A DNA stretch of 64,000 bases from Halorussus amylolyticus (GTDB lineage: Archaea > Halobacteriota > Halobacteria > Halobacteriales > Haladaptataceae), in NCBI RefSeq assembly GCF_004143485.2, contig NZ_ML974134.1, positions 181,262 to 245,261 of the forward strand. Direction: 5' to 3'. Shown here one piece after another: positions 40,025 to 45,819 of the stretch. The position numbers were made by a program, and so were the translations under genes. The notes beneath the pieces are model-generated. The model searched no databases. It saw only the letters and a list, made by a program, of their open reading frames with translations, and was not told the DNA's origin. Position 1 is the stretch's first letter, and each line of letters begins with the position of its first letter.

Positions 40025-41164
40025 ATGCGCGTGGCGTTCGTCTCGGAGGCGGTGGCCCAACACCACGAAACGGGGGCCACCAGGCGCATTCGACGCACCG
40101 CCGAGGCGCTCGCCAGACGGGGCCACGACCCCGTCGTCTGCTGTGCGAAGTGGTGGGACGGCGACCACGCGACCTTCGAACAGGACGACGTCGTCTATCG
40201 CGCGGTCACCGACGAACCGCCCGGCGAGTCCCGACGGTTCGCGCTCTCGCTTCCGGCGGCGCTTCGGGCCGCCGACCCCGACGTGATTCAGGCGACCGGC
40301 GCGGTCGCCTCTCACGTCCTCGCGGCCAAACTCGCGAGCGTCGTTCTCCGGGCGCCCCTCGTCGTGGACTGGTACGACTCGCCGGGACCGAACGACTCCA
40401 ACGAACCCCAGTGGCGACTCGCCGCCACGCTCCCCGACCTCGTTCTTGCGCCCTCCGAGACGATTCGAACCCGCGTCCGGGAACTTGGCGCGGAGGCCGA
40501 CGCGGTCCGGGTCGTCCCGAACTTCATCGACACCGACGCGATTCAGGAGGCCGAACCCCGCGAGGTGGCCGACGTCGTCTACTCGCGGCGACTCGACGAC
40601 GACGCCAACCTCGAAAGCCTGTTGCTGGCGCTCGCCGAACTCCGGGACCGCGAGTGGTCTGCGGTCGTCATCGGCGACGGTCCGGAACGCCACACCTACG
40701 AGCGACAGGTCAAGGACCTGCGAATCGAGGACAGGGTGTCGTTCGCGGGCGAACAGCCGGTCGAGAACCGACTCGCGGCGTTCAAGGGCGCGCACGTCTA
40801 CGCCCAGACCGCCCGGAAGGAGTCGTTCCCGACCGACCTCCTGCGTGCACTCGCGTGCGGGTGTGCGGGCGTCGTCGAGTACCACGTCGATTCGAGCGCC
40901 CACGAACTGGTCGAACAGGAGGACCGGGCGTTCCGAACCACGAGCGAACAGGAACTCACCGACGCGCTCGTGACCGCCGCCGAGATGGAGCGGATGGACC
41001 GCAACGAGAACTTCGGCGAGTACGACGAGCGCGCGGTCATCGAGACGTACCTGAACAGCTACGACGAGGCCCGCGAGCGGATGAGTTGGGTGGAGCCTGC
41101 GATGTTAGTCGGCGGCGCTATCGCGGTGGTCGCGGTGGTCGCGCTGTTGGTCGTGGTGCTGTGA
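40025..41164 (+). CDS. family-4-like glycosyltransferase with C-terminal membrane anchor
   Basis: A GT-B fold glycosyltransferase, 379 residues. MRVAFVSEAVAQHHETGATR starts the N-terminal Rossmann domain, VIGDGPERHTYERQVKDL and VSFAGEQPVENRLAAFKGAH the C-terminal nucleotide-sugar domain. In the EX7E motif of this class the second Glu is replaced by Arg (ESFPTDLLRALACG). A single transmembrane helix at about residues 357-379 anchors it. No cluster of sugar genes surrounds it. The frame is open from 39509; ATG 40025 matches the family start. Confidence 0.88.
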   Translation: MRVAFVSEAVAQHHETGATRRIRRTAEALARRGHDPVVCCAKWWDGDHATFEQDDVVYRAVTDEPPGESRRFALSLPAALRAADPDVIQATGAVASHVLAAKLASVVLRAPLVVDWYDSPGPNDSNEPQWRLAATLPDLVLAPSETIRTRVRELGAEADAVRVVPNFIDTDAIQEAEPREVADVVYSRRLDDDANLESLLLALAELRDREWSAVVIGDGPERHTYERQVKDLRIEDRVSFAGEQPVENRLAAFKGAHVYAQTARKESFPTDLLRALACGCAGVVEYHVDSSAHELVEQEDRAFRTTSEQELTDALVTAAEMERMDRNENFGEYDERAVIETYLNSYDEARERMSWVEPAMLVGGAIAVVAVVALLVVVL

Positions 41165-41321
41165 TTTTCACCCTCGCTGTTTGAGCAGGCTTTCTAGCAG
41201 TTTGGTGTAGTATGCGAGCAACCGTTGAGAATAGAGTCCTAGCGACTGCCCCCAGAGATAGGAAGACGCACCACGAAAATCCGAACGGAAAATATAATTA
41301 TTCATATAATTTTCAGTTAGA

Positions 41322-41330
41322 AAAATATAT
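41322..41330 (+). promoter_or_regulatory. AT-rich promoter of the cysteine-rich precursor gene
   Basis: AAAATATAT, inside a strongly AT-rich stretch (about 41288-41332), is centred about 27 bases before ATG 41353. This spacing fits a leaderless message starting at MMSEREHP and is the reason for choosing that start over 41212 or 41329. Confidence 0.45.
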
Positions 41331-41352
41331 GTTTAGCAGGGTCGGACAGCCA

Positions 41353-42147
41353 ATGATGTCCGAGAGAGAACATCCAAAAGAGAACCGACGGTCGATGTTG
41401 AACAGCGTCCACGAGGGACACAGCATTTTCGAGAACGACGAGAGCGTGTCCTCTGACCGACGCCCTCTACTCAAAGGACTCGCAGTCTCGGTAGGAAGCC
41501 TGCTCGGTCTGGGAGGTACTGCCGCTGCCGGTTCCGACACCGAAGCCGACGAAATACGAAAACAGACCGAAGCCGCGATGGAGGGCTACGATACAGTCGA
41601 AGGAGTAGAAACCGCAGTAGCCAACCACGAGAATGGGCTTTTGAATAAACTAACCGATAGCAGTCTCGTCGCGGCCGTCGATTCGGATACCTTCACCGCC
41701 AACGATGTCCAACTTTGGAAGGCTCCAGCAGAGAACGAACCTACTGACGGGACGTACGTGACTGCCTCCGAACGCGAGGGAACGTTCGCGGCACAGATTT
41801 CCATCGTCCGGAAGACGCCGAACCACATCGTTCGGGTTAATATCGAACCCCAACTCGACCGGAGTTTCGCCACGGTCAGTACGCGTGAGGGTGAGACGAT
41901 AGCCGTTCTCGACCCCAGTCACGACGGTGAATTGTCGGCTCAGACCGGCGAGAGCACCGATGACACGGTTACACCGCAAAAGGAGTGCGGAACCGACGGG
42001 TACACGTGCCCGCCGGGTGCGTGTTGTCTCACCTGTGGAACCCTTCAGACGAAACACGAACGGACGTGTTGCGTTTTTTCCGACGGTTCCACGGATTGTT
42101 ACGAAGAAGCCATCGACAAATGCTGTGACCCGCTCGTTTGCTGTTAG
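41353..42147 (+). CDS. secreted precursor with 12-cysteine C-terminal peptide (bacteriocin-like architecture)
   Basis: A 264-residue protein of unknown function. Residues 1-60 hold a hydrophilic leader and a Tat-like signal (SSDRRPLLKGLAVSVGSLLG, then GGTAAAGS). Residues 61-211 form an acidic, cysteine-free middle domain. The last 53 residues contain all twelve cysteines, including four CC pairs (GACCLTCG, RTCCVF, DKCCDP, LVCC). Halocin C8 precursors share this three-part plan (Tat signal, immunity-like domain, Cys-rich peptide), but the tail sequence here is hydrophilic and not recognisably homologous. A secreted metal-binding protein is the alternative. Codon use is AT-richer than neighbours. 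It overlaps the convergent next gene by 4 bases. Confidence 0.75.
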   Translation: MMSEREHPKENRRSMLNSVHEGHSIFENDESVSSDRRPLLKGLAVSVGSLLGLGGTAAAGSDTEADEIRKQTEAAMEGYDTVEGVETAVANHENGLLNKLTDSSLVAAVDSDTFTANDVQLWKAPAENEPTDGTYVTASEREGTFAAQISIVRKTPNHIVRVNIEPQLDRSFATVSTREGETIAVLDPSHDGELSAQTGESTDDTVTPQKECGTDGYTCPPGACCLTCGTLQTKHERTCCVFSDGSTDCYEEAIDKCCDPLVCC

Positions 42148-43298
42148 GTGGTACAGCCGGCCACGGTCACCGTTTTCTCAGACAGAGCGAGATACCTGCC
42201 CGACTCGTCACACGAGACCGGAGAGAGCGTGGAAACGCGCTCGAAATCGTACACTTCAGCGTACGTATCGACGAATTCGGTTGCCTGACTTGCACGCTCC
42301 CACGTCACTCGCCACGTGACGACGGTCGCGTTACTCGACCGGTAATAGTCCATCCTGTCGTTGGTCCAGCCATCGGTCGCGGCGGTCGCTCGGCTTGGAC
42401 TGATACCTTTACTTTCGAGTGTTTCCCGGAGAAACAGTTCACCGACACGGTCAGTGTGTACGCGTTCGAGCGAAGTCGTGGATACGTTCGGTGACTCCAG
42501 TCGTTCGTCGATAGGTTCGGTCTCGTTCGGATGGAGCAGTTGTGCCGTCGATTCTGGAATATCGGTACCGCGAACGCTCCGCTGGTCCAGTTGCTTGCTG
42601 TATCGGTAGCCCGAGTAGTACATCGACTGGGTTATCTGTCGCTTCCACTGTTGCTCAGGTGCGCTCAGTGCTGAGACGTTCAGATGTCCTCCGTACCGGT
42701 CGATATACACGTCTGCCACGTACAGCGAGACGCCGTTCGAAACGGCTTGTCGAGCAAGCACTTCGTCCGTGGTCTGTGGAGCGGTCGAACGCGAGCCAGT
42801 GGTCGTTCCGTCGTTGGCAGCGGGTATCCCGATGGCGTCGCTGAGTTCGTGAACGACGAGGGCTTCGTAGGACAGCCACGGGACGTTTTCGACGACTGTT
42901 TGATTCGCGAGGAACACCTCTACCGGTCCACCGTCCGGTGAGACCGTCGTATGACCTAGTGATGACCGTTCTGTCGAACTCTCTCTCTCGTCGAGTTCGA
43001 AGAAACGGAGGCCGTCCTCCTCGACGAAAGCGAACTGAGCTTGATTCGGGGTCGTGTCGATTCCACTGTCTGTCCGCTCGACACAAATCGAGAGATTTCG
43101 TTGCAGTTGCTGTCCCGTTATGCGTTCGGTACGGGAGAGCATTCGCTCGAAGTCGTACTCGGGCAGCGATTCGCAGATCTCGACGCGGGCGTTTCGTTCC
43201 TCCTCTACCGAATTCAGGTGACCGTTTGCGTAGACGCCCGTGAGTAGTGCTCCGAAAAGCAACGCAGCGAAAAGTACTCCTCTGCGTCGAGATTTCAT
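42144..43298 (-). CDS. membrane-anchored protein with HExxD protease-like motif
   Basis: A 384-residue protein with an N-terminal signal anchor (RRRGVLFAALLFGALLTGVY) and an extracellular remainder. Around residue 150, LSYEALVVHELSDAIGIP resembles the zinc-protease HExxH helix but with Asp in place of the second His. Similar secreted haloarchaeal proteins carry full HExxH. The rest is Thr/Ser/Asn-rich with several NxT/S sites. It is convergent with the cysteine-rich precursor and overlaps its 3' end by four bases. A processing or immunity role for that precursor is a hypothesis only. Composition is AT-richer than the surroundings. Confidence 0.72.
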   Translation of the reverse strand: MKSRRRGVLFAALLFGALLTGVYANGHLNSVEEERNARVEICESLPEYDFERMLSRTERITGQQLQRNLSICVERTDSGIDTTPNQAQFAFVEEDGLRFFELDERESSTERSSLGHTTVSPDGGPVEVFLANQTVVENVPWLSYEALVVHELSDAIGIPAANDGTTTGSRSTAPQTTDEVLARQAVSNGVSLYVADVYIDRYGGHLNVSALSAPEQQWKRQITQSMYYSGYRYSKQLDQRSVRGTDIPESTAQLLHPNETEPIDERLESPNVSTTSLERVHTDRVGELFLRETLESKGISPSRATAATDGWTNDRMDYYRSSNATVVTWRVTWERASQATEFVDTYAEVYDFERVSTLSPVSCDESGRYLALSEKTVTVAGCTT

Positions 43299-43377
43299 TT
43301 ATCTAAAATAATCTGCCCTCGCTTATATGTTTTTGCCGTACTAGAATGCTTAGAAAATATCAGGGAGGGGGTGTCGG

Positions 43378-45819
43378 CTATTGAGAGTCCTTGGAGTTAT
43401 CTGCAGCCGCCACGACGTTCACTGCCGCGACGTTCTCGGCCACGTCGTGAACCCGAACGATGTCCGCGCCGCGCTCGGCCGCGATTGCGGTCCCCGCGAC
43501 GGTCGCCGCGGTCCGGTCGTCGTCCTCCCCGATGAGACCGAACATCGACTTGTGCGAGTGGCCCACGAGGACCGGACACTCCAGCGCGTGGAACTCGTCG
43601 GTCCGGCCGAGGAGCTCGAAGCTCTCGGCGCTCGCCTTCCCGAAGCCCAATCCGGGGTCCACCACGATTTGCTCGCGGTCGAGTCCGGCCTTCTCGGCCA
43701 GCAGGACCTTCTCTTCGAGTTCGTCGATGACGTCCTCGACCACGTCGTCGTAGTGGACTTGGTTGCTCGGAACCACTGGCGCGTCGATGCTGTGCATCAC
43801 GACCAGCGGCGCGTCGTACTCGGCGGCGACGAACCGCATCTCTGGGTCTTCGAGACCCGACACGTCGTTGAGTACGTCGGCTCCGGCGTCGAGCGCGGCG
43901 CGCGCGACTTCCGCCTTTCGGGTGTCGATAGAGACGAGAGCGTCGAGGTCGGCGATGCGCTCGATGACCGGAACCACGCGCTCGATTTCCTCGGTCGCGG
44001 AAATCTCGTCCGCGCCGGGACGGGTCGATTCGCCCCCCACGTCCACGATGTCTGCGCCCGCTTCGACCATCTCCTCGGCGCGCGCCACCGCGTCCTCGAC
44101 GCGTTCGTACTCGCCGCCGTCGTGGAACGAGTCGGGCGTGACGTTCAGGACGCCCATCACCGCGGTCCGGTCCTCCCACGGGTAGCCCCGCCGGGCCGGG
44201 TCGGTCCGGATGTCGAGCGCCTCGCGGAGTTCGTCGGCGAACACCGACAGGCCGTAGGGCTGGCCGTCGAGTTTCTCGCCGAGGCGCTTGAACTGGGCCA
44301 GCGTGCCCATCAGCACCACGTCGATGTTCTGCTCGTCCTGCTCGTTCAGTCCCGAGAGCGCACACTCCCCGCCGAGTGAGAGCATCTCCTCTTTGAGATA
44401 TCGGGCTTGGCGAACCTGCACGCGGGTCTTGAGGACTCGGTGGACCGCCTTCCCGCGCATCCGCCACACGCCGGGGTCGGTGACGTGCGCGCCCTCCAAG
44501 GCTTCGCGGGCGTCGTCGAGATTCCGGATTCGCTTGGGAATCTCGGCGCGGGTCCACCGCGACCGGGCCTCCGCCACGCCGTAGAGCGACCCCGCGACGA
44601 GGACGAGGTCGTCCGAGTCGGCCGCGTTCAGCGCGTTCTCCAGCGCGCCCTCGACCGAGTTCCGGGTGAGGACCTCGCCAGCGCCCGCCTCCTCGAAGAC
44701 GCGGGCGACGACCGCCTCGTCTTCGGCGCGGTCGAGGTTCGGGTGGGTCGCAACCACGCGGTCGGGCGTGGGTAGGGCCTCGGCCATCCCGCGGAGGTCC
44801 TTGTCGTGCATCGCGCCGAACACGAGGTGGAAGTCGTCGTACGCGCCGTCGAACTCCGCGAGCGTCCGGGCGAGCGCCTCGCACGCGCCGGGGTTGTGCG
44901 CGCCGTCGAGGACCACGAACGGGTCGGTTCCCATCACCTCGAAGCGGCCGGGCCAGTCGGCCTTTCGAAGCCCGCGAGCGAGCGTCTCCTCGCTCACGTC
45001 CGCGACTTGGCGGGCGAGCGCGGCCGCGACTCCGGCGTTCTGCGCCTGGTACTCGCCGAGAAGCGGGATTCGCGTTTCGACGCTCCAATCGTCTCCCGCA
45101 AGCGAAATCGCGGCCTCGGTGTGGTTCGTCCGACCGCCGTAGCTGACCCGAACGTCGGCGGCGTCGTCTTCGCCCACACGAACCACGTCACCGGCCTGTT
45201 CACGGACCGCCGCGAGCGCCTCGTCCGCGGTCGCGGTCACGAGCGGCGCGTCCTCCGGCGCGACGTGGGCCTTGTCGCGGGCGATTTCCTCGATGGTCTC
45301 GCCGATGATGCCGGTGTGTTCGAGCGTGACGCTCGTGACCGCGGCCGCAATCGGGTCCACGACGCTCGTGGCGTCGTACTTCCCGCCGATGCCGACTTCG
45401 AGTATCGCCACGTCCACGTCCTCGCGGCCGAAGTACCAGATGCCGAGCGCGGTCATCGTCTCGAAGAAGGTGGGCGCGTCCCCGTCGGCCGCCTTGTCGT
45501 TGACGTACTCGCGAATCGACTCGACGAACTCGACGATTGCGGCCTCCGGAATCTTCCGACCGTCCACGCGGACGCGCTCGCGCACGTCGTCGAAATGCGG
45601 CGAGGTGTACAAGCCGACGTTCAGTCCGGCGTCCCGCAGGACGCGCTCGGCCATCCGGGCGGTCGAACCCTTCCCGTTCGACCCCGCGACCTGCACGAAA
45701 TCGACCCCTTCGTGGGGGTCGTCGAGGTGAGCCAGCAAATCGGCCGTCGAATCCGTCCCCGGTTTGGGTCGGAAGCGACGGATGTCGAACAGGAAGTTCG
45801 CCGCCTCGTGGTAGTTCAT
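43378..45819 (-). CDS. folCP: fused folylpolyglutamate synthase and dihydropteroate synthase
   Basis: An 813-residue bifunctional folate enzyme. Residues 1-430 are the FolC (Mur ligase-like) domain: P-loop AGSNGKGSTARMAERVL, TVTLEHTGIIGETIEEIARDKA-like active region, and DGAHNPGACEALARTL. Residues 430-535 are a linker with Cys and His (LGGECALSGLNEQDEQNI). Residues 540-813 are dihydropteroate synthase: MGVLNVTPDSFHDGGEY, DVGGESTRPGA, VSIDTRKAEVA and VGHSHKSMFG. The fusion is known in haloarchaea. ATG 45819 (MNYHEAANFLFDIRRF) is used; the frame remains open upstream in a hairpin-rich gap. Confidence 0.94.
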   Translation of the reverse strand: MNYHEAANFLFDIRRFRPKPGTDSTADLLAHLDDPHEGVDFVQVAGSNGKGSTARMAERVLRDAGLNVGLYTSPHFDDVRERVRVDGRKIPEAAIVEFVESIREYVNDKAADGDAPTFFETMTALGIWYFGREDVDVAILEVGIGGKYDATSVVDPIAAAVTSVTLEHTGIIGETIEEIARDKAHVAPEDAPLVTATADEALAAVREQAGDVVRVGEDDAADVRVSYGGRTNHTEAAISLAGDDWSVETRIPLLGEYQAQNAGVAAALARQVADVSEETLARGLRKADWPGRFEVMGTDPFVVLDGAHNPGACEALARTLAEFDGAYDDFHLVFGAMHDKDLRGMAEALPTPDRVVATHPNLDRAEDEAVVARVFEEAGAGEVLTRNSVEGALENALNAADSDDLVLVAGSLYGVAEARSRWTRAEIPKRIRNLDDAREALEGAHVTDPGVWRMRGKAVHRVLKTRVQVRQARYLKEEMLSLGGECALSGLNEQDEQNIDVVLMGTLAQFKRLGEKLDGQPYGLSVFADELREALDIRTDPARRGYPWEDRTAVMGVLNVTPDSFHDGGEYERVEDAVARAEEMVEAGADIVDVGGESTRPGADEISATEEIERVVPVIERIADLDALVSIDTRKAEVARAALDAGADVLNDVSGLEDPEMRFVAAEYDAPLVVMHSIDAPVVPSNQVHYDDVVEDVIDELEEKVLLAEKAGLDREQIVVDPGLGFGKASAESFELLGRTDEFHALECPVLVGHSHKSMFGLIGEDDDRTAATVAGTAIAAERGADIVRVHDVAENVAAVNVVAAADNSKDSQ

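Follow-up and report, generated by a model that had tools for sequence, protein, structure and literature searches.

The precursor gene and its locus

The window, a 64,000-nucleotide stretch of the Halorussus amylolyticus genome, contains a gene, P0001, whose product is built of three consecutive parts, namely a Tat signal, a middle domain and a short C-terminal tail (Table 1). The hydrophobic region of the signal is rich in Ala, Gly and Leu and is located between the RRPLLK motif and an AxA-type end (TAAA-G). Translation of 41353-42147 confirms the 264-residue Tat-type precursor described in a first-pass annotation: residues 1-211 are devoid of cysteine and all twelve cysteines, including the CC pairs, are found in residues 212-264, a clustering within the last 53 of 264 positions for which simple counting gives a chance of about 1e-9. 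The start at 41353 or 41356 is backed by the orthologues, which likewise begin with MMS; a longer in-frame start exists at 41212 and finds no support in these orthologues.

P0001 converges on a partner gene, and the stop codons of the two overlap. The partner matches the NF038145 model with an E-value of 5e-11 and a score of 42.4 bits, below the cut-off of 200, and on this sequence match it is best described as a divergent relative of the Hvo_1808 family of surface proteins. Its zincin motif is degenerate (HELSD) in the window; some copies retain HExxH, the H. ruber one reading HELNH. Both genes belong to an island of low GC content; the island had been noticed at the precursor and is indeed present, its extent being wider than first described and including the convergent neighbour.

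Table 1. Features of the P0001 locus (positions within the window)
Feature	Position	Strand	Basis
Low-GC island with precursor and partner	41000-43499		54-58% GC vs about 60-72% around
AT-rich stretch with TATA-like sequence, presumed archaeal promoter of P0001	41285-41345	+	Sequence; inference
P0001 precursor gene, 264 aa	41353-42147	+	Open reading frame; same start and end in orthologues of H. aquaticus (59%) and H. ruber (56%)
Tat signal of P0001: RRPLLK (residues 36-41), h-region, TAAA (residues 56-59)	41458-41529	+	Sequence; family-wide Tat motif
Middle domain of P0001 (about residues 60-190), helices then β-sheet (predicted)	41530-41922	+	AlphaFold2 model; conservation
Junction motif VTPQ (residues 206-209), proposed processing region	41968-41979	+	VSIQ in orthologues; motif enrichment
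53-aa tail with 12 Cys and four CC pairs	41986-42144	+	Sequence; 75% identity to both orthologues
Convergent partner, 384-aa Hvo_1808-like exported surface protein (predicted)	42144-43298	-	NF038145 match; similar genes beside other family members

The middle domain

Searches of Pfam and NCBIfam with P0001 and 22 relatives return only Tat-signal models and isolated weak matches; for P0001 itself, NCBIfam gives a weak Tat model and no match to TIGR04449, and sequence searches of the PDB give no significant match. AlphaFold2 modelling of residues 60-264 from a 32-row alignment reaches a mean pLDDT of 77 and a pTM of 0.75, with values above 90 (maximum 97) in several middle-domain blocks and a low-confidence prediction for the tail. 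With an input of only three sequences the pLDDT was 37. A fold search with the model of the mature protein retrieves nothing from the PDB at E<0.1 and nothing from BFVD at 0.001 or better. By the Pfam, NCBIfam and PDB searches, the middle domain is undescribed and its family previously unmodelled. A match of the whole protein to a known enzyme or structural family, which the first-pass annotation had set against its own reading, is thus found in none of the Pfam, NCBIfam, PDB and fold searches. A survey of archaeal antimicrobial peptides, reportedly that of Makarova and colleagues in mBio in 2019, may already mention the family.

Relatives and distribution

The orthologue search covered 28 genomes of the same taxonomic family. 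A scan of genome contigs with the single P0001 sequence gave no match, and a contig scan with three orthologues named both Halorussus species: in Halorussus aquaticus and H. ruber the orthologues share the gene order glycosyltransferase, P0001, partner and folate genes. In a fourth Halorussus (G015), P0001 and its partner both persist only as remnants, side by side. Two weak matches in the window's own genome (L002 and L003) have the appearance of chance frames and were rejected.

More distant members were collected in two steps: a profile of the Tat signal plus middle domain was first applied to 392 Halobacteria genomes, and a model of the middle domain only was then used; P0001 matches the middle-domain profile. 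In this particular draw of genomes, to which the counts are specific, 50 genomes from six families contain at least 90 frames of the family (88 usable), a lower bound with only nine candidates scored per genome. At the level of the phylum, a profile of the mature region has matches in only 2 of 197 genomes, a result that may depend in part on the genomes drawn. No relatives were found in the phage collection. The Tat motif and hydrophobic region are present in 87 of the 90 members and complete homologues retain the Cys tail; homologues devoid of tail or signal, to which the first-pass annotation had pointed as contrary evidence, were not found, and the plan that it proposed to look for in other genomes recurs in about 90 haloarchaeal relatives. 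The plan of Tat signal, middle domain and Cys tail is well supported at the sequence level. An [RK]xxLL motif upstream of the Tat signal is limited to 12 members.

The tails borne by the common middle domain are hypervariable, 23-85 residues long, with 4 to 22 cysteines of unrelated spacing; one genome (G002) encodes six members whose tails are unlike each other. Plasmid pHME505 of H. mediterranei bears a member annotated as “hypothetical protein” (WP_014732775.1, locus tag E6P09_RS17015, L225:5872-6570) with a 12-Cys tail. A Halorussus member (L123) has a tail with 78% identity to this one, whereas the pHME505 protein shares only 26.5% identity with P0001, over only 65% of its length, and its tail sequence is different.

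Cysteine parity and divergence of the tails

The number of cysteines following the Tat motif is even in 84 of 88 members, and in 70 of 72 once similar tails are removed (binomial p 5.6e-19), as compared with 77 of 138 neighbouring genes with at least four cysteines. In the odd-count members, one cysteine lies in the middle domain and the tail itself is even. Because even counts across tails of unrelated spacing are what pairing predicts, the cysteines of the family tails are probably engaged in disulfides.

Both orthologues of P0001 keep all twelve cysteines, and their tails are 75% identical to that of P0001 vs 49-53% for the middle domain, so that the tail appears to be under selection; in most close orthologous pairs, conservation of the tail is equal to or above that of the middle domain. 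Tandem paralogues behave in the opposite manner, with 61% identity in the middle domain vs 35% in the tail, and 60% vs 38% in a second pair. Conservation among orthologues together with divergence among paralogues makes the tail look like the functional part of the precursor, the one that diversifies after duplication.

Partner genes and recurrent neighbours

Hvo_1808-like genes are found directly beside family members in five independent loci (the window, G149, G346, G022 and G287), and a membrane protein with CxxC and zinc-ribbon motifs directly beside members in seven. One halocin C8-type gene likewise has a gene for this membrane protein at a distance of 4 bp, and a damaged copy is found near another. 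Since a genome holds about two copies each of the Hvo_1808-like and CxxC membrane proteins, arithmetic gives a chance expectation below 0.1 for each partner over some 65 loci. An unannotated family of about 280 residues with the motif FLPKR adjoins members at seven loci (L188, L189, L192, L196, L209, L215 and L218); further recurrent neighbours are PQQ-type β-propellers and pairs of ABC transporter genes. Partner genes nevertheless vary among loci, most loci lack any of them, and two genomes (G014 and G017) have an Hvo_1808-like gene but no precursor. Such variation lends no support to the idea of a single self-contained system.

As a separate observation, secD/secF-like genes stand beside four members in four genomes (L053, L169, L174 and L176).

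A candidate precursor of a secreted disulfide-rich peptide

The reading that we favour, at a probability of roughly 55%, is that P0001 encodes a precursor from which a secreted, disulfide-rich and probably antagonistic peptide derives, within a haloarchaeal family that combines a common Tat signal and middle domain with differing Cys tails. The precursor would be exported by the Tat pathway and its tail cysteines would pair into disulfides, six in P0001. We infer from the sequences that the tail is cleaved and released: an extracellular protease would cleave in the region of the V(S/T)xQ-type junction, freeing a peptide of about 53-55 residues that, like halocin C8, may act against competing haloarchaea. 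A role of the middle domain could be to hold the tail in an inactive or folded state. Protection or maturation could be provided by neighbouring partners, in the case of the window by the Hvo_1808-like surface protein. Several features make antagonism the likeliest function: a plan like that of halocin C8, diversified tails, a patchy distribution, the location in a low-GC island and the linkage to partner genes. Antagonistic activity, like a protective or maturation role of the partner, stands as a hypothesis only, and the same holds for immunity conferred by the middle domain or the partner. Counting against antagonism, the P0001 tail is acidic, with a net charge of about -5, in contrast with typical cationic antimicrobial peptides.

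The variability of the tails raises the question as to whether they are released at all. Hypervariable tails on a common domain would also suit a recognition protein, and several neighbours (the β-propellers and Hvo_1808-like proteins) are themselves predicted to be secreted or surface proteins; the tail could then remain part of a secreted or surface protein as a variable module for binding or adhesion, stabilised by disulfides and serving the recognition of kin, surfaces or viruses rather than killing. However, the plan and junction motif of the family resemble those of halocin C8-type precursors, and one neighbour family is common to both, which leaves such a permanently attached module unlikely, if still to be reckoned with.

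The density of cysteines, the CC pairs and the CxxC and zinc-ribbon motifs of some neighbour proteins would be compatible with a secreted metal-binding or redox module, either metallothionein-like or a metal scavenger. The near-universal even number of cysteines with unrelated spacing fits pairing better, as odd counts and His ligands would be acceptable in metal sites, and Pfam, NCBIfam and the PDB give no match to a metal-protein family or structure; this reading is improbable.

More doubtful again is an antagonistic protein in which activity resides in the middle domain or its N-terminus and the tail serves only to stabilise or target. The middle domain is predicted by AlphaFold2 to fold well and HmHapP offers a precedent in which an N-terminal fragment is active (PMC12893001), but tail conservation equals or exceeds that of the middle domain in most orthologous pairs. 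A ribosomal peptide with cysteines modified by a dedicated enzyme, for instance into thioether rings, would follow the general pattern of a conserved leader with a variable Cys-rich core, but this is the least probable reading of all, as no RiPP or lanthipeptide modification enzyme is recognised among the genes of the window locus or the recurrent neighbour families, a Tat signal and a folded domain of 130 residues are unlike RiPP leaders, and even cysteine numbers fit disulfides.

Comparison with halocin C8 and other known systems

To our knowledge, few halocins are known at the sequence level. Halocin C8-type precursors (TIGR04449), which 43 genomes of the 392-genome set encode and of which the window's genome has one, consist of a Tat signal, a domain of about 150-200 residues mostly without cysteine, and a C-terminal Cys-rich peptide; P0001 likewise unites a Tat signal and a Cys-rich C-terminus on one precursor. 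Halocin C8-type precursors also carry a V(S/T)xQ-type junction motif, as in the P0001 family. Ahead of the first tail cysteine, the motif occurs in 14 of 77 sequence segments of the P0001 family (mean 1.9 and maximum 11 in 1000 shuffles), its strict form being absent from the other 63, and in 11 of 31 segments of halocin C8-type precursors (shuffled mean 1.4, maximum 6). In the precursor whose tail matches what we take to be mature halocin C8 (DIDITGCSACKYAAG), the site of the motif is the junction of both parts, the mature start being assumed in the same way. The P0001 tail differs from halocin C8 in being hydrophilic and in having no match to TIGR04449, which bears out the dissimilarity pointed out in the first-pass annotation.

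The halocin C8-type precursor of the window's genome, its sole TIGR04449 match and above the cut-off, is located at G000:C2:201184-201978 (L040, L244). In two other genomes, Tat proteins of about 685 residues (L044 in G024 and L046 in G021) end in a halocin C8 domain preceded by an N-terminal part far longer than usual.

No homology is detectable between the middle domain and the HalI-like N-domain of halocin C8 precursors (hhalign, 83 vs 35 N-domains, probability 1.6%). A weak profile match of the halocin C8-like protein in the window's own genome (E 1e-5), which had suggested such kinship, vanishes without the Tat part and was rejected.

On a broader scale, the family may represent, with slightly less than even odds, a class-wide haloarchaeal system in which one exported carrier domain serves dozens of unrelated disulfide-rich peptides, several per genome, with locus-specific genes for protection or maturation, and thus a second solution unrelated to halocin C8. 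It supplies about 70 distinct candidate peptides on a uniform carrier, a testable even-cysteine rule and candidate partner genes.

In Haloferax mediterranei, HmHapP (HFX_0892) is an exported precursor from which extracellular proteolysis generates an antagonistic peptide (PMC12893001). By comparison with the P0001 family, its active part is a helical N-terminal fragment, and cysteine is unmentioned in the main text of that paper (PMC12893001). Further antagonistic precursors of H. mediterranei are reported as still to be identified (PMC12893001), and one member of the P0001 family is found in a tractable strain of this species, ATCC 33500.
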